This document shows positions 1 to 24,210 of a DNA stretch of 26,460 nt, piece by piece. Made by a program: the position numbers and the translations under genes. Below the pieces are notes generated by a model. It searched no databases and was not told the origin of the DNA. It saw only the letters and a program-made list of their open reading frames with translations. The stretch is from positions 1 through 26,460 of IMG/VR virus record IMGVR_UViG_3300031707_000148; one strand, written 5' to 3'. The stretch is from a virus. Each line of letters starts with the position of its first letter. Positions within the stretch are counted from its first letter, which is position 1.

Positions 1-625
1 TTGGAGTAGTTGCTGTTGCAGGATTGGTAACTGTTGCAGGAATAGCAGTTTTTGCAGTTCCTTGATTAGCAAACAAAGGTACAAGCTCTTTTACTCCTGT
101 CATAGCGGCATCAGTTGCTGATTTCATTCCTTGCTCAGTAGCTTTAGCCGCAGCTTCTTGTGCATCTCTAGCCGCTTGTTGATATCCTGCCGCTTGCTCT
201 AAGTCTAAGCCAACACCTATATCCCTTAATCGACTATTCTCTTGTGCTGTAAGTTTCTCAAGATTCAATAACTCTTGCCCTTGCTCTGATCTTACTTGAC
301 CTTGTCCTTGCTGAGAAGCCAAGTATATTCTACCTGCCGCCTCTGCTGCACCTCTCTCGCTCTCCTGAGCCGCTTGAGTTAGACCAAATGATGATGACAA
401 CAATCCCTCACGACTTAACTCGTAAGGTTCTTTTTGTAATCCTATTGCTTGGTAATAGTTTTTGCCCAAGTCTTTACGTGCCTCGTCAAATGCGTTCTGT
501 GCATCTCTCTCAGCTTGTCTTTGCAAACCTCTTTGCTTTCCTGCCTGAGCAAATGACATACCTGCTGTACCTGCTGATACGGCCATTCCGCCTAATGCTA
601 TTGCTGTTGCTGTTGCTACTGCCAT
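1..625 (-). CDS. Partial Ala/Gln-rich internal virion protein candidate (runs off the left edge)
   Basis: The reading frame opens with ATG at 625-623, one base after the stop of the upstream acetyltransferase gene, and stays open to base 1, giving about 208 visible residues. The first 25 residues are small and hydrophobic (MAVATATAIALGGMAVSAG). A long Ala, Gln, Glu and Arg-rich helical stretch follows, with strong coiled-coil character. Near residue 175 this changes to a Pro/Thr/Ala-rich segment (AIPATVTNPATATTP). A hydrophobic N-terminus followed by an A/Q-rich helix is the style of T7 gp14 and other podovirus internal (ejected) core proteins, and the place just after the tail genes fits. 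This is inferred from composition and position, not from a recognised domain. A tail-tape-like or other ejected protein remains possible. The C-terminus is outside the window. Confidence 0.7.
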   Translation of the reverse strand, partial: MAVATATAIALGGMAVSAGTAGMSFAQAGKQRGLQRQAERDAQNAFDEARKDLGKNYYQAIGLQKEPYELSREGLLSSSFGLTQAAQESERGAAEAAGRIYLASQQGQGQVRSEQGQELLNLEKLTAQENSRLRDIGVGLDLEQAAGYQQAARDAQEAAAKATEQGMKSATDAAMTGVKELVPLFANQGTAKTAIPATVTNPATATTP

Positions 626-2476: not shown

Positions 2477-5400
2477 TTATGGTGGCGTACATCCGCAACT
2501 ATCTACAGTTAGTATAGGATTACCTTGTGTTATTTCATATTGTATATTAGGTGTACCTGCTGAGTTTATACAAATTGTTAGAGGTGGATCATCTTCTTTT
2601 AAAGTTACTTGATATAATCCGGGAGTACCACAAATTCCATTTAAAAAACCAATTACACAATCTGCTCCATTTGGATTTATTGTTATCTCTACACATTCAG
2701 AAGGTCCACAATAAGTACATTCGCAACATACAGCATTTATATCTGTAGGGTCATAACATAATCCTTGTGATACTGATGATGTTAAATCCCAAATTAAATA
2801 TAGGTAATCACCCGAATAAATACTAGCAGGTACAGTAAAATCAGCATAATACAAACTTGAACTTGCAGAAACAATTGGAGTAGCTGTATAAGTATTTACA
2901 TTATTTAACATTGCATTTATATCAATCGTATTATTTCCATACAATGTACTGCTTTTTAAATACTTAAACTTATCTCTGCTTGAATTTTGGTATAATCCTG
3001 TTGCAGTAATCAAATTTGTTTGCATTCTCATTGTGCTACCTCCTTGAGGGAAACCTGCATTTCCTTCAGGACCTGATACTATATTGTACCAAGAAACTAA
3101 AGGAGATGTTGTTCCACTTGCAAATGTTACAAAGTTAGACTGTAATGCGCCTGTAAATGTTCCATTTGTGTATCTATATTGAGCATCAATAGTGTCTCCT
3201 GCTTCTGAGTTTATAGTAAGAACAACCTGTACTATATTTAAAGTCTTAGCCAATGGACATGCTACATTTACACTAAGCGTAACAGCTCCTGTATATCTTA
3301 TTTTAATGTTTGCAACTTCAATATTGTTAACTCCTTTTGAAAAAGAAAACAAGCCATCTTCGTCAACAAAACCCGACTCGGTATTTACTAAGTTAAAATT
3401 TGCAATTATATTAAAAGATTCACCGCTTTCTATTGATTGTATATTGTATGTTATATTAACATCTCCAACAAGAGCTCCTACATCAACACAATAATCAAAC
3501 TCAGCATATCCTATTAATGGATCAATCGCATCATTAAGCGTAAGTGTTTGATTTGTTCCACATGGAATACATTGAGGACTAATAGGGAGTAATCTATCAT
3601 TTGATACCAATACATACTCATTTGAGTAAGGGTCATATCCTCCAAGTTTTTGTGTATTAAAAGACCTATTGAACTCATCTCTAAACCAAGTTCTCATATT
3701 GGCATCAGAGATAACCATTAACTGCTCGTTTGAGTATGAGTCACCTCTTAATTGCAATACAACACCTCTTTTTGCATCAGTAAAATATCTATCTGAACCC
3801 CATTGTACATAACTCTCAGGATTAAAACTTATACCATATTTATCAGTACGAGCAATTTGAGTTCCCAATACTTCAGGTACTGATGTAATTGCACCCCCTG
3901 CCGCAGCATCAGACAACAAGTTTTTACCTGCTAATACGTAAGATATTTTATCTTCTTGCAAAACAAGTACATCTGTTTGTCTTCCATCCATTTTAAATAT
4001 CTCGCCAAATGATGTTTCTAATTTTTTATAATTTAAAAGACCTAAATTAAACTCGTTTAACTTATTTACATTTGATTCGGCATTAAATATACCGCTATAT
4101 GTAATATCAGCAAATCTATCAGCTTCTTTGTAATCTTGCGCAGATACTTGAGTTACACGATTACCTAAATTCATAGGTACACCAACAATTGAATCTCTGA
4201 TTTTATAACTTTCAGCTCCGTTACCAAATGTAAAGCAGTTAAAGAATCCTGTATCAATAATTGCAGGTAGTGATGATGTTTGTGTTTGAACATTGCCTGA
4301 ATGGTATCCATCTTCATCAATAGCAAAGGATAAGTCATTCTCAAAGAAAATATCAGGTAGTGAATCTTGTGGTTCTGTTTCAAATATAAAAAGATTATTA
4401 GCCCTAAATACTTGAATATTAGCAGAAGTACAAGATCGTCTTTTGTCATTTCCTCCTATACCTATTGTACAAGGGTCTGTTCCTCTTAATACCAATACAA
4501 GTTCATTGGTATCTGTAAGTCTAGCAAATTGATAATAGTTTGTACATAGAGCAGAAGGTATAGGGAAAGGTCCTGTAGACGATGTAGTCATTAATGTTGG
4601 GATATACTCATTCTCAATTGGACAACCACTTCCGCCTACATTTTTAACTCCTGAGTCTATTAATGCTTCTACATTATCTCCATTCCACCAATCAGCCATA
4701 TTATCATAATTGTTTGAAGATATCAATGTCAAATCCAAAGTATACTCTCTTCTTTCACATTGTCTATTTCCTGCTCCTGCACCTCTTCTTTCAAATCTAA
4801 TATTTATAACTATTTTACTTCCTGCAGGAACTGTGTAGTCAATAAACATACCCGGATTGCTTGGATCTGCAATATTCATTGGATATGTTAAAATTGCTCC
4901 TGCTCCTGCACCGGGATCTTTGCATCTGCTTTGAGATCCGGGAGCTACAGTTGAATTAGGGTCTTCAACAACAACAAAATCGTTTGGATTTATTTTCATA
5001 TACACACCTGCAGGTGGAACTACATTTGTCTCAGGTTCAATAAATCCTTCTGCTTGCGATTGCGTTTCAAGTACAGTAGCATAAGTGCAAGTCTGAGTAG
5101 GACCATTTGAATCTGCTTTTACAATCAATCTATCTCCTTTCTCAATCTTTCTTGAATTTTCTCCTTCAAGTAAAAAGTAAACCTCATTATTTGTAGGACT
5201 TTTAAAAAATATTGAACTATAAATAGTTTCATAATTTTCTTGGTCAGGTTTTATAACAAACTTATACCTTGTAGCCCAATATGGAGCAATCTGTGTAGTT
5301 GGTATAGTTACTTGTATTGAGTTCTTTCTATCTGCAAAACCACATGGAATTTGCTCGGTATCGCTACGCGTACTAACCAATGCTGTTGATGACCTGTTAA

Positions 5401-7189
5401 ATTCATCCATATATACCATACCAATTTGGTAACCACGATTACTATGTAGACTTCTTGGATTTCCTATCTCTTGAAATGTAGCTTCAGCAAATGTGTATGA
5501 GTAGTACTCGTAAGCATTTACAGTTGGAGTAGTAGTATCATCTACGTACCTCATTGCAATAATCTTAAGACCAATCACACTACTTCCCGGACTTGTAATA
5601 ACTTCAACAGCTTGACCCCCTACTGATATACCACTTTTGTATTTAGTAAGTGTGCCTCCACTATAATCCAATGTTGCAGGTAGTGCACAGTTTACAGAAT
5701 CTGTAAATGTTATACCTGTACATGAGTTAAAAGGGAATACTGTTTGAATATTCCCCAATGGTAACGATGTCCCTATAGCATTTTGAAACTCAACACTTGT
5801 CGCCATTTCATACACAGAATTGTAATCTTGCAATAAGAAAAAAGAAAAGTTTAAACTTAAAGATTCCGTTTGTTCAGTAGGAGTTACATCTCCTGAAAAA
5901 TCAGCATGAGATATTGATAACTCCAAAGAAAGAATTGCACCCTGAACTAAATTTGCTCCTGTAAAATCAACTTCAACTACAGAATTTGGAATTGTTTTTA
6001 TAATATCTATACTATACTCTCCTGATACCGTATTGTCGTCTAAACTTGATTCGCCTATAATCTCAGATATAAGTGTTGTTTGATATTCTAACTTTGTAGG
6101 AGAATTATTTTTATCAATCAAATCGTATCCTTCTACATAATTACCATACATTAATCTATTGCCCATTAATGTTTGAGATTTAGCAAATCTTGGTACGTTA
6201 TCATAAAGTCTTAAAAGCTCAGATTCAGGAAGTATAGTAAATATCTTGCTATTGTCAAACGTATATTGCTTTGGAGCATTATTGCCAAATCCTGCTTGTT
6301 TTTTATTTATCTTCTCAATTACTTTTATAACATTGCTTGACATTTGTTTAAAAAGTAAGTCAACGCCAACTACCAATGGACCACCTGTATTATAAGTTAT
6401 AATAGCAGTATTACAAGCATTTGTCATCCCTTCATTTAAATAACTATTTATAGTAAATTGGAAAGGCTTAGGAACAAATGATGGAGCAGACCATTGCGAT
6501 GTTGCAGAATACTCGCCATCTGCGTACTTATATCTATAAGCAAAACAAATAAATCGAGTGTCCATATATGTAGACTGACTGTTTGTTGCAATAGGTTGCA
6601 CTTCAGGAGATTCTAATGGGGGCTTTTTAATAACCAATATAGACTCTGCTGTAAATCCATCTACAAAAGTATTTATAGGAGGGTCATAAGTTCTTTTTAT
6701 ATTTATAAATCTTGGAGGATTATAGTCATCAGTAAAAAATAATAAATTTTCAATTATATTAACTCCTGTTATTAAATAATTTTCATTAAAATTTAAAACT
6801 TGAAAAGATACAACATGATAAGTTAAAATACCTGTAAGTACATTTAATGACACAATAATATCCAATTTCAAAGGACCTCCACTATAAGGATCAATAAATT
6901 CAGGATCTGTTACAAACCAATAAATAGTCTCATTTGCGTCATCAGATATTGCGCCTATACATTTTGCATTTATACTTAATGGATTAGGAGCATAAGAAGA
7001 TACTAAACTAAATGCTAATCTTGAAAGAGCAATATTGCCTTTTGTATTTTCAATAACACCAACTTCAGAGTTCTCGGTAGACCCCATTCTGATATTCATA
7101 GCATCAATATACTCACCATTAGGAACAACTCTTTCGTCAAAAGTTTTGTTCATCTTTCCTGCTACGAAGTTTCTTGATAATTTTCCCAT
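2477..7189 (-). CDS. Tail nozzle (muzzle) protein, T7 gp12 / P22 gp10 type
   Basis: This 1570-residue protein is the largest in the window. Its N-terminus (FVAGKMNKTFDERVVPNGEY, then DAMNIRMGSTE and GVIENTKGN) is the standard opening of podovirus nozzle proteins: an unstructured lead, 'D.R.vPnGey.dA.N', and a beta-propeller start. A second recognisable block at roughly residues 1030-1190 contains EFNLGLLNYKKLE, YGISFNPESYVQWGSDRYF, DAKRGVVLQLRGD and KLGGYDPYSNEYVL. It resembles the nozzle/muzzle proteins of crAss-like phages. The last 90 or so residues form a cysteine-rich module (CCECTYCGPSEC ... SCGC) related to the one in the next gene. Nozzle proteins form a hexameric tube that closes the tail and opens for DNA ejection. 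The protein is about twice as long as T7 gp12 (about 800 residues). It sits one base after the adaptor gene. Confidence 0.85.
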   Translation of the reverse strand: MGKLSRNFVAGKMNKTFDERVVPNGEYIDAMNIRMGSTENSEVGVIENTKGNIALSRLAFSLVSSYAPNPLSINAKCIGAISDDANETIYWFVTDPEFIDPYSGGPLKLDIIVSLNVLTGILTYHVVSFQVLNFNENYLITGVNIIENLLFFTDDYNPPRFINIKRTYDPPINTFVDGFTAESILVIKKPPLESPEVQPIATNSQSTYMDTRFICFAYRYKYADGEYSATSQWSAPSFVPKPFQFTINSYLNEGMTNACNTAIITYNTGGPLVVGVDLLFKQMSSNVIKVIEKINKKQAGFGNNAPKQYTFDNSKIFTILPESELLRLYDNVPRFAKSQTLMGNRLMYGNYVEGYDLIDKNNSPTKLEYQTTLISEIIGESSLDDNTVSGEYSIDIIKTIPNSVVEVDFTGANLVQGAILSLELSISHADFSGDVTPTEQTESLSLNFSFFLLQDYNSVYEMATSVEFQNAIGTSLPLGNIQTVFPFNSCTGITFTDSVNCALPATLDYSGGTLTKYKSGISVGGQAVEVITSPGSSVIGLKIIAMRYVDDTTTPTVNAYEYYSYTFAEATFQEIGNPRSLHSNRGYQIGMVYMDEFNRSSTALVSTRSDTEQIPCGFADRKNSIQVTIPTTQIAPYWATRYKFVIKPDQENYETIYSSIFFKSPTNNEVYFLLEGENSRKIEKGDRLIVKADSNGPTQTCTYATVLETQSQAEGFIEPETNVVPPAGVYMKINPNDFVVVEDPNSTVAPGSQSRCKDPGAGAGAILTYPMNIADPSNPGMFIDYTVPAGSKIVINIRFERRGAGAGNRQCERREYTLDLTLISSNNYDNMADWWNGDNVEALIDSGVKNVGGSGCPIENEYIPTLMTTSSTGPFPIPSALCTNYYQFARLTDTNELVLVLRGTDPCTIGIGGNDKRRSCTSANIQVFRANNLFIFETEPQDSLPDIFFENDLSFAIDEDGYHSGNVQTQTSSLPAIIDTGFFNCFTFGNGAESYKIRDSIVGVPMNLGNRVTQVSAQDYKEADRFADITYSGIFNAESNVNKLNEFNLGLLNYKKLETSFGEIFKMDGRQTDVLVLQEDKISYVLAGKNLLSDAAAGGAITSVPEVLGTQIARTDKYGISFNPESYVQWGSDRYFTDAKRGVVLQLRGDSYSNEQLMVISDANMRTWFRDEFNRSFNTQKLGGYDPYSNEYVLVSNDRLLPISPQCIPCGTNQTLTLNDAIDPLIGYAEFDYCVDVGALVGDVNITYNIQSIESGESFNIIANFNLVNTESGFVDEDGLFSFSKGVNNIEVANIKIRYTGAVTLSVNVACPLAKTLNIVQVVLTINSEAGDTIDAQYRYTNGTFTGALQSNFVTFASGTTSPLVSWYNIVSGPEGNAGFPQGGSTMRMQTNLITATGLYQNSSRDKFKYLKSSTLYGNNTIDINAMLNNVNTYTATPIVSASSSLYYADFTVPASIYSGDYLYLIWDLTSSVSQGLCYDPTDINAVCCECTYCGPSECVEITINPNGADCVIGFLNGICGTPGLYQVTLKEDDPPLTICINSAGTPNIQYEITQGNPILTVDSCGCTPP

Positions 7190-17335: not shown

Positions 17336-17594
17336 ATCCTTGTTTTGTATCTGTTTTACTAATACCTCTATCCATAGAGTCTATGTTTTCTCTTTCCAAT
17401 TCAATTCTGCTTAGTATTTCAAACGCATCAAATATTGCTAACTTTTTTGACATTGCTGCATTCTTAAGTTTGTCGGCAGATAAGTCATCGTCTGAATTCA
17501 TTTTTATAATGTCTTCTTCTGCAACTTTAATAAGTTGTTCAACCGCTTTATGACCTGCTGCAATTATTTTTAATTTAACTTCTTTAATGTTCAT
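17313..17594 (-). CDS. Small helical protein, candidate terminase small subunit
   Basis: This 93-residue protein is entirely helical (MNIKEVKLKIIAAGHKAVEQ, SADKLKNAAMSKKLAIFDAF, EILSRIELERENIDSM) with a basic C-terminus (GFAERRSK). It lies directly upstream of the large terminase gene and overlaps it by 23 bases, and overlaps the preceding gene in ATGA. Short helical proteins at this position in Bacteroidota phages are often the DNA-binding small terminase, which oligomerises on the packaging site. No helix-turn-helix is obvious, so the role is inferred mainly from position and tight coupling. The protein is shorter than most small terminases (about 140-180 residues). Confidence 0.55.
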   Translation of the reverse strand: MNIKEVKLKIIAAGHKAVEQLIKVAEEDIIKMNSDDDLSADKLKNAAMSKKLAIFDAFEILSRIELERENIDSMDRGISKTDTKQGFAERRSK

Positions 17595-18154
17595 AGCTTA
17601 ATGGTTATTTGATGGTCCATAATTCTATACAATTTCTCATTATCAACAGTAAATTCATACTCAGAATCAAACTTGTAACAAACAACATCTCCTGCTTTTA
17701 TTCCTTTGCTAATCAAGTATTCGTTTGGGTACTTCATTATTCCCATCAATGGTTCATTAGTAAAACACTTTTTAATGTAGCACTCAACTGTAGGTAATGG
17801 TTTTACAAAACAATACTTGTCGTGCGTGTTCCACGTGGAACCTTTTTTGTACATAAAAAACTGATCCATTTCAATAAAAAAGTTGTCATCTCTAAAGAAG
17901 CTCTTGCCACTTTTTTGACGACCCTTCATATCATTGTAGTATTTAAATACATTGTGGTGAACGAGTAATATATCACCCGGAGTAATTGGACCGTTGTACC
18001 CTAAAGGGACTTCTACGACTTCTGCATATCGGTTAGAGGACATATGGTCTTCCTCTGAAGTACTAACCACTATCTCTACTCCTGATATGTCTTTTGTGTT
18101 GTCGTATCGTTTCCCCTTCAATGGCTTTGCTATGAAGTAGAATGGTGAACGCAT
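17591..18154 (-). CDS. GroES-like co-chaperonin homologue
   Basis: This 187-residue protein resembles the co-chaperonin GroES and its phage counterparts (T4 gp31), which cap GroEL and help fold the capsid protein. The N-terminus (YFIAKPLKGKRYDN) matches 'v.PL.dRv', EVVEVPLGYNGPITPGDILL (residues 45-64) matches the GroES 'G.VvavG.G.....vk.GD.V' core, and FFIEMDQFFMYKKG (residues 92-105) matches the closing strand. A second similar set follows: KYCFVKPLPTVE (113-124) and GIKAGDVVCYKFDSEYEF with DNEKLYRIMDHQITIKL (151-187). The protein is about twice a GroES subunit (97 residues in E. coli), consistent with two such folds. The gene sits among packaging and capsid genes, which fits a capsid-folding role. 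The call rests on pattern similarity, not on a full alignment. Confidence 0.6.
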   Translation of the reverse strand: MRSPFYFIAKPLKGKRYDNTKDISGVEIVVSTSEEDHMSSNRYAEVVEVPLGYNGPITPGDILLVHHNVFKYYNDMKGRQKSGKSFFRDDNFFIEMDQFFMYKKGSTWNTHDKYCFVKPLPTVECYIKKCFTNEPLMGIMKYPNEYLISKGIKAGDVVCYKFDSEYEFTVDNEKLYRIMDHQITIKL

Positions 18155-23627: not shown

Positions 23628-23969
23628 TTAGTTTAATGTCAAAAGATACAATGTCTTGTCTATCAATCCCAACATCTCATCCATTATATTCTGAATCTCA
23701 GATGGATAATTGTTTCTTTCAGTATCTATAATAGATTGCAACTCCTTTAAATGAGCAGTAGCATCCATATTTTTTGATTCAGGTATAACAATCTCGCATC
23801 TTTTAAATCTACCAAAATAAGCTTCAGTAAAAGTATCAGTCAAGTCAAGAATGCCATCATAATAACCATTCAATGCTTTATGCTCTGCAAAACTTGTTGT
23901 TTGCAAATGCGCAATATGCATTGTGTCTCTTGAATGGAATAATATTCCAATAAATTTTCCCGGTGTCAT
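23628..23969 (-). CDS. Small ferritin-like (Dps-type) helical protein
   Basis: This 113-residue protein appears all helical, as four short helices. The first two (residues 5-55: LFHSRDTMHIAHLQTTSFAE, ALNGYYDGILDLTDTFTEAY) carry H18, H30, D45 and E49. Their spacing (H-x11-H-x14-D-x3-E) is identical to the ferroxidase ligands of E. coli Dps (H51, H63, D78, E82). The remaining helices (THLKELQSIIDTERNN and IMDEMLGLIDKTLYLLTL) complete a bundle shorter than Dps (167 residues). I recall this family from phages as DUF5856, a name that needs checking. It could oxidise or bind iron, or keep the fold for a structural role. It starts one base after the coiled-coil protein's stop, in a tight cluster ahead of the fibre genes. 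Confidence 0.7.
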   Translation of the reverse strand: MTPGKFIGILFHSRDTMHIAHLQTTSFAEHKALNGYYDGILDLTDTFTEAYFGRFKRCEIVIPESKNMDATAHLKELQSIIDTERNNYPSEIQNIMDEMLGLIDKTLYLLTLN

Positions 23970-23970
23970 A

Positions 23971-24210
23971 TTAATCTTGTTTTTTAGTTACTTCTCCTGT
24001 TTGGATATTAATTACTGCATCAGTACCATACTTTTCAATAAGCATTTGCTCGTTTTTTGCAAACGTCATTCTTAACTCATCAATCTGCTTTAACAATCCT
24101 TGCTTTTGAAGTTCTAAATCGCCTAATCCCATCTTTGCTTTTGAGAAATCAGCGTTCATTCCTTGAATTAATTCTAATTCTTCTTGTGTAATCATTACTT
24201 GATCTTGCAT
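23971..24210 (-). CDS. Small coiled-coil protein, unknown function
   Basis: This 79-residue protein is almost one long helix (ITQEELELIQGMNADFSKAK, LGDLELQKQGLLKQIDELRM, FAKNEQMLIEKYG) with a heptad-like Leu/Ile/Met pattern, then a short beta-hairpin-like end (AVINIQTGEVTKKQD). Proteins with this opening and ending are frequent in environmental phage genomes and remain unassigned. It could be a structural spacer or an assembly partner of the fibre genes that follow. The start at 24210 is preceded by AAAATCAAAT at 3 bases. Confidence 0.75.
   Translation of the reverse strand: MQDQVMITQEELELIQGMNADFSKAKMGLGDLELQKQGLLKQIDELRMTFAKNEQMLIEKYGTDAVINIQTGEVTKKQD

Follow-up and report, generated by a model that had tools for sequence, protein, structure and literature searches.

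Dps is a bacterial protein of the ferritin superfamily that binds and protects DNA, oxidises Fe(II) and stores iron as a mineral inside a dodecameric cage. In Dps proteins, the ligands of the di-metal ferroxidase site come from two subunits, D67 belongs to this site, and a short helix in the B-C loop is a further feature. Canonical ferritins and bacterioferritins have an intra-subunit site with ExxH motifs. Dps proteins are also found in some phages: among the 50,697 phage records searched here, E. coli Dps matches 125 (E up to 0.001), which makes phage Dps rarer than the family described below, and mention of Dps enzymes in other phages is made in PMC8008677. That family includes a small protein of phage T4, rI.-1. 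Although few viruses have been studied as closely as T4, rI.-1 carries only a vague lysis-inhibition label, and Pfam describes its family, DUF5856, as being of 'unknown function'.

Here we analyse a DUF5856 gene in a virus record of 26,460 bases, the whole of which is called the window below. The open reading frame lies at positions 23628-23969 on the minus strand: an ATG at the 23969 side opens 113 codons, followed by a stop. In a first-pass annotation, the product had been described as a phage mini-Dps; we found that it is no singular invention and belongs to the widespread family known as DUF5856, PHROG 858 or T4 rI.-1. We consider it probable that the DUF5856 gene encodes a virus-specific, trimmed Dps-like ferritin, which would bind, and probably oxidise, iron at a subunit interface.

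The DUF5856 family and its spread among viruses

Family membership is established for the window protein: it matches Pfam DUF5856 (PF19174) with 79.4 bits for a gathering cut-off of 34.6 (E 4.5e-22), and PHROG 858 with an E of 5e-25. It also carries the conserved set of the family, namely H18, H21, S26, H30, A32, D45, E49, G53 and D97. The member found in T4-like phages is rI.-1 (MobD.6), to which the window protein is 28% identical in RB14, 27% in an Aeromonas phage, 35% in RB16 and 30% in T4 (tblastn). The reading frame is under purifying selection, with a median dN/dS of 0.08 and no pair above 1; these values come from the 1,154 pairs with dS between 0.1 and 1.5, out of the 3,160 pairs formed by 80 close relatives (1,297 pairs were saturated, and the remainder fell outside the dS range).

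A tblastn search with the window protein matched 1,392 of the 50,697 phage records (E up to 0.1), and at least 80% of the query was covered in 1,366 of them. Judged by phage name, enterobacterial hosts predominate, and no group of 68 Flavobacterium records appears among the ten commonest names of this tally. The taxonomy of the matched records that we looked at comprises Straboviridae, Ackermannviridae and unclassified phages. In IMG/VR, one scan with the same query yielded 228 relatives (80 retained), and further queries yielded 102 and at least 599 (80 retained of each), then 39, 6 and 1. The 297 loci under study contain 297 frames matching the family profile, with none in locus L286 and two pieces in L295. 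Gene g280 of phage phiR1-37 is also a homologue (29.8% identity to the relative in locus L091).

The predicted shape recurs in other viruses. Among BFVD structural matches of the window-protein model, we found proteins of Pithovirus LCPAC404 (E 1e-4, 28% identity) and Fadolivirus (E 2.6e-3, 25% identity), two viruses of eukaryotes, as well as proteins of crAss-like phages annotated 'putative DpsA' or 'DNA-binding' (E 2.6e-3 to 3.2e-3, 14-22% identity). A prasinovirus protein with the PHROG 858 label is mentioned in PMC11408933. A bacterial household protein was also considered, and rejected: one strict pattern, run on the genomes of 84,980 species, returned 22 stretches; two of these are relatives, each lying on a MAG contig of roughly 4 kb, and this count is a lower bound because the pattern is strict. 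The L091 relative, used as query, had 0 matches in 72,556 plasmids, and the sole match of the DUF5856 model in 14 control genomes, in B. subtilis, was under the cut-off.

Predicted fold and relationship to Dps

The AlphaFold2 model of the window protein (66 aligned sequences, single chain) has a pLDDT of 96.6 and a pTM of 0.89. Helices are predicted at residues 3-22, 27-54, 70-85 and 90-111; residues 55-69 are non-helical in the model, and no B-C loop helix is predicted. A departure from the antiparallel four-helix bundle, which would argue against a ferritin-like protein, was looked for; the model is a confident four-helix bundle, and the window protein is thus predicted to fold as an antiparallel bundle of the ferritin-like type. 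In VIA-align, all 113 residues are aligned with M. smegmatis Dps2 (Z 13.9, rmsd 2.0) and with E. coli Dps (Z 12.7, rmsd 2.2). Among the best 50 structural matches (Z 11.8 at rank 50), 44 are named Dps, ferritin, bacterioferritin or ferritin-like, two are YciF, and four are named just uncharacterised or structural proteins. The model of rI.-1 from phage RB16 also has four helices (pLDDT 92.6), and its top matches are YciE (Z 14.8) and M. smegmatis Dps2 (Z 14.5).

These scores call for some caution. For helical bundles, a Z under about 13 may reflect arrangement alone, as the structure tool itself warns, and Foldseek alone against PDB gave probabilities up to 1.00 with a best E of 0.065, hence no match with E below 0.001. 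Because helical bundles can reach such Z values without kinship, the case is carried by sequence and structure jointly. The question arises as to whether the protein could be an unrelated helical bundle, in which the pattern of two His, one Asp and one Glu described in the next section would be coincidental. Such bundles match each other easily, the Foldseek E is weak, and unrelated bundles do turn up in profile searches. A profile of 14 family members, run against PDB sequences, has 31 matches (E up to 10), among which de novo bundles and a syntaxin appear from E 0.005; with a profile of 66 members, designed scaffolds appear from E 0.014.

In both searches, however, the sequence profiles independently rank Dps first. 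The best match of the 14-member profile is the H. pylori neutrophil-activating protein (HP-NAP), a Dps, with an E of 3.1e-4, and other Dps chains are present among its matches; that of the 66-member profile is a Dps-family neutrophil-activating protein, with an E of 1.2e-4. The profiles also align with Dps: profile-profile comparison with ten Dps sequences gave an E of 2.3e-6 (probability 89), and a separate run gave a score of 36.3, whereas none of 100 column-shuffled controls exceeded 16.5. A sequence link of the family to Dps is thus shown, and the profile search against ferritin-like families that the first-pass annotation had recommended leads to Dps sequences.

This link is a distant one. 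PHROG 858 matches two of the six Dps scanned (E. coli Dps at 0.0087 and a Streptomyces phage Dps at 0.0019), the other four being without match. Conversely, the Dps PHROG 3636 matches the relative in locus L087 at 0.0077 and the window protein at 0.081, with no match for RB14 rI.-1 and the L288 relative, that is, for two of three members. A single-sequence search of PDB with the window protein gave three matches, with no ferritin among them. The Pfam Ferritin family (PF00210) has no match within the window and is absent among the 25 families listed of the 64 found for 66 DUF5856 members; of four DUF5856 proteins scanned singly, one was matched by it, that of L310, with 13.9 bits for a cut-off of 24.5. 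Since profiles link the family to Dps while PF00210 stays under its cut-off or is absent, DUF5856 is, as judged from profiles and models, a remote relative of Dps that stands outside the Pfam Ferritin family proper.

Conserved residues and the putative metal site

The translation of the window gene reads H18-x11-H30-x14-D45-x3-E49, with H18 on predicted helix A (3-22) and the three other residues on helix B (27-54). E. coli Dps, translated here from b0812 of K-12 MG1655, has H51, H63, D67, D78 and E82, and the intervals separating H51, H63, D78 and E82 are identical. The first-pass annotation had rightly reported these positions and intervals, as well as a length cut by about one-third (113 versus 167 residues) and an Asn at the place of Dps D67 (N34, codon 23868..23870, minus strand). 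The spacing pattern is rare by chance: when the window protein was shuffled 200,000 times, it appeared in 139 cases. Of the 71 frames in the window that run from stop to stop over at least 60 codons, the DUF5856 frame alone has it, and at the 297 loci it is found in 293 of the 297 family-profile frames versus 6 of the 10,601 other frames. The four family frames without it comprise one fragment, one split-frame piece and two frames with a four-residue insertion in the A-B loop. The E-x-x-H motif is absent from the translated window protein.

To examine conservation, we left out of the family frames the copy from the window itself and five frames that were short or split, and then added the window protein, which gave an alignment of 292 sequences. 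H18, H21, S26, H30, D45, E49 and G53 are identical in 292 of 292 sequences, and D97 is kept in 291, with one gap; free variation of H18, H30, D45 and E49 in homologues, which would speak against the ferritin-like reading, was looked for, and the four residues proved invariant. This set is biased towards conservation, since peptide patterns supplied 281 of the 292 sequences and some of those patterns include these very residues. Twelve relatives picked for diversity from the tblastn matches (the set of 292 includes 10 of them) all keep H18, H21, H30, D45, E49, G53 and D97, and in 40 of 40 representatives below 80% identity, H18, H21, S26, H30, A32, D45, E49 and G53 are identical. Position 34, in contrast to this invariance, is occupied by G in 114 of the 292 sequences, N in 91, Q in 78, E in 7 and D in 2.

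Two invariant histidines, H18 and H21, are candidates for the place of Dps H51. The exact x11 interval designates H18, and this was the first ligand of the earlier set, yet the alignments place H21 there. In the profile alignments, H21 falls on the 'HW' histidine of HP-NAP and on Dps H51, with a gap of three residues in the A-B loop. The structural range, in which residues 1..113 cover 31..165/166 of Dps, gives helix A an offset of 30, that is, 21 to 51, and the range of RB16 rI.-1 (5..127 on 22..166) brings its H34, the counterpart of H21, to 51, both on the assumption of a gapless helix A. In a mixed alignment of nine rows that includes E. coli and Stigma Dps, the only invariant columns are those of H21, H30, D45 and E49; H18 faces a Lys in both Dps (K48 in the E. 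coli protein). HP-NAP has a His at the place aligned with H18. The Trp that follows H21, as in the Dps 'HW' pair, is present in 39 of the 292 family members and missing in the window protein.

In addition, the relatives in L086 and L297 carry their four-residue insertion between positions 25 and 26, which breaks the x11 spacing and indicates that the length of the A-B loop varies. These two proteins also have a long N-terminal extension; the first (L086, 3788-4363) comes from a phage record of 634,780 bases. Because alignments and structural ranges put H21 on Dps H51, the exact x11 spacing from H18 is taken to be accidental: as far as alignments and models can tell, it is H21, not H18, that corresponds to Dps H51, and the A-B loop is three residues shorter. 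What stands of the initial proposal of a small ferritin-like protein is thus a Dps-related predicted four-helix bundle with four strictly conserved residues, and what falls is H18 as the counterpart of Dps H51. H18 (codon 23916..23918, minus strand), invariant in DUF5856, is perhaps an extra or second-shell ligand.

The predicted metal ligands are therefore H21 (codon 23907..23909), H30 (23880..23882), D45 (23835..23837) and E49 (23823..23825), all on the minus strand, equivalent to Dps H51, H63, D78 and E82, respectively, and kept without exception in the 292 sequences. That these are the sole columns common to all nine rows of the mixed alignment, added to the failure of column-shuffled controls and the first rank of Dps in profile searches, makes an unrelated bundle with a coincidental pattern highly improbable.

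A mechanism can be proposed for a Dps-like ferritin of this kind. Each chain would be an antiparallel four-helix bundle. As in Dps, the metal site would lie where the two subunits of a dimer meet, between H21 and H30 of one chain and D45 and E49 of the chain related to it by the two-fold axis; H18 is a single turn of the helix away from H21 and may supply a further ligand. Fe(II) would be bound at this site and probably oxidised with peroxide or oxygen. The chains would assemble into dimers or a small cage, cage formation being plausible by analogy. The infected cell would then have less free iron and suffer less hydroxyl-radical damage, possibly with some protection of DNA, which could be useful during a long infection or in a stressed cell, and some copies may travel with virions. 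Any benefit would be conditional, depending on peroxide, iron or the length of the infection, because T4 sublines with a frameshift in rI.-1 grow without noticeable difference: two such laboratory sublines, in which this frameshift is one among other differences, are described in PMC8573959.

Gene neighbourhood and alternative roles

The terminase encoded in the window shares 78% identity with its counterpart in podovirus MW202828 (60,850 bases) and 44% with those of Flavobacterium elemo phages. Together with a match to the crassvirus muzzle protein, this similarity designates a crAss-related phage, and the sequences indicate that its host is probably a flavobacterium. The muzzle match (PF25731, E 2e-9) is at the N-terminus of a 1570-residue protein (2477-7189, minus strand), although the related records compared here are only about 60 kb long. 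Near the terminase gene lies a gene for a GroES-like co-chaperonin of 187 residues (17591-18154, minus strand; PHROG 13932, E 4.5e-21). An elemo phage has a GroES-like co-chaperonin at the same place, plus a second GroES and a GroEL.

Immediately upstream of the DUF5856 gene, and ending one base before its start, is a gene for a 79-residue protein (23971..24210, minus strand), coiled-coil-like by eye. It precedes DUF5856 in 78 of the 79 scorable loci of the clade, MW202828 being the sole one without it, and its match usually ends within 15 bases. The 79-residue protein has no match in the 50,697 phage records (E up to 0.1) nor in the loci of other clades; it is a possible binding partner of the DUF5856 protein. 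Further upstream, a 152-residue frame is followed by an M15 peptidase (Pfam E 3e-10; PHROG 6584, E 3e-78) and then by a 77-residue frame whose holin matches are weak. Seven bases downstream of DUF5856 is a 1009-residue frame with a match to the virion structural family PHROG 16122 (E 1.9e-13) and a weak one to a tail spike family. Across the clade, a fibre N-terminus is recognised downstream in 35 of 77 loci; for the M15 gene on the upstream side, the count is 30 of 70. One elemo phage has at this place the M15 gene, a DUF285 gene and a 398-codon gene, with DUF5856 not annotated. The position directly before the fibre genes, on which a virion role had initially been suggested, thus holds in the phage's own clade but not elsewhere, where the neighbours are rI, RusA, HNH, portal, internal virion protein or endolysin genes (9 of the 20 neighbours scanned in other clades had no match).

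Two other scenarios accept the ferritin-like bundle, or at least a helical one, and assign it a different role. According to the first, the protein would hold a structural metal (Zn, Mn or none), would have no ferroxidase activity and form no cage, and would either belong to the virion, as a component or an associated protein, or scaffold a partner. The loss of Dps D67, of the B-C helix and of the N-terminal tail fits such a protein; on the other hand, it is hard to see why a purely structural part should keep, without exception, four ligands that equal the ferroxidase site of Dps. As for the virion, a protein with the PHROG 858 label, by which it is identified, is listed among 40 virion proteins in the report on two Klebsiella T4-like phages, whose virions, purified on CsCl, gave 26 and 27 peptide matches to it (PMC13119998), and the genes of Klebsiella phages with this label match the window protein by tblastn. 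A Dps-like particle could nevertheless co-purify with phage virions. The phiR1-37 homologue g280 is annotated 'phage structural protein', and in one clade the DUF5856 gene is found just after the portal gene and two genes before that of a large protein with a partial virion-protein match, but its neighbours are not consistently structural across the family. We regard this first scenario as unlikely.

In the second, the protein would be an accessory of lysis timing, that is, a small helical modulator of holin or antiholin in which the metal site serves as a redox or iron sensor, or is a relic. T4 rI.-1 shares an operon with the antiholin gene rI, and its over-expression is said to have slightly extended lysis inhibition (Golec et al. 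2010, as summarised in the review PMC6832632), a small effect, and one that stems from over-expression. In RB14, RB16 and an Aeromonas phage, the DUF5856 gene adjoins rI or the gene that corresponds to it; in Caulobacter phage GB2A it adjoins an endolysin gene, and in the window it lies within the stretch of holin-like and M15-endolysin genes. Several other clades, however, have it beside RusA or HNH genes, and Klebsiella phage RaK2 is reported in PMC3622015 to have an rI.-1 homologue without homologues of T, RI, RI.1 and RIII. A lysis-timing accessory thus seems quite improbable. We also considered a fixed lysis neighbourhood for DUF5856, and rejected it, as the neighbours vary. The 'holin' label that follows the gene in Methylophilaceae phage P19250A (L085, 6357-6794) is probably wrong: the likely counterpart of this protein in L097, by size and place, matches HNH endonucleases.

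Virion and lysis-timing roles could also be consequences of one and the same iron activity, which returns us to the Dps-like ferritin. A bolder form of that proposal is that DUF5856 is a virus-owned ferritin branch, present in T4-like, crAss-related and jumbo phages and perhaps in giant viruses of eukaryotes, in which the Dps site has been turned into an infection-specific sensor or sink for iron and peroxide. It would have a part in determining the time for which an infected cell stays alive, whence the effect of rI.-1 on lysis inhibition, would be present in some virions as well, and H18 would mark a changed chemistry. In this extended form, the proposal appears unlikely.

Comparison with known ferritin-like and phage proteins

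Both the family and the fold class were already known; what is new is a pared-down, predicted ferritin of Dps type that has one more invariant His and is common to T4 and many other viruses. The Dps link seems to have been partly foreshadowed by the 'putative DpsA' and 'DNA-binding' annotations of crAss-like phages, and by the PHROG 858 label 'starvation-inducible transcriptional regulator', which appears to echo the name of Dps. As nothing we found points to transcription, this label should be replaced. A literature search, with most subscription journals outside its coverage, found no publication that connects rI.-1 or DUF5856 to Dps or to ferritin. Should rI.-1 be a Dps-like ferritin in miniature, its function can be tested directly in T4 and E. 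coli, and the handling of iron and oxygen would join what many phages (the 1,392 matched records) bring to infection.

Compared with Dps proteins such as E. coli Dps, MrgA and HP-NAP, the window protein has a similar predicted four-helix bundle, and its H21, H30, D45 and E49 match H51, H63, D78 and E82. It differs from them in several respects: the N-terminal tail is missing, so that helix A begins at residue 3; the A-B loop is shorter by 3 residues and the B-C region by about 20, as estimated from the difference of aligned ranges; D67 is not conserved in DUF5856; the invariant H18 is additional with respect to E. coli Dps; and PF00210 does not match. Bacterioferritin, mini-bacterioferritin and YciF/YciE likewise have a ferritin-like bundle (Z 11.8-12.5 versus the window protein), but the latter lacks the ExxH of bacterioferritin types, and its conserved set is that of the Dps type.

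The phage Dps of PHROG 3636, found in Lactobacillus phage Lb338-1 and in Streptomyces phages such as Stigma, are also phage-borne and have the Dps ligands. They differ in belonging to a separate PHROG, in their Dps hallmarks HW and AER and, for Stigma, in a match to PF00210. The Stigma protein (L308, 268-666), with 132 residues and a score above the Pfam Ferritin cut-off, is another shortened phage Dps. Closest of kin are the rI.-1 proteins of T4-like phages, which share the same invariant residues and, in RB16, a predicted four-helix bundle; compared with these family members, to which its identity is low, the window protein comes from a crAss-related phage with flavobacterial phages as its nearest named relatives, it has no N-terminal extension, and its gene has different neighbours.
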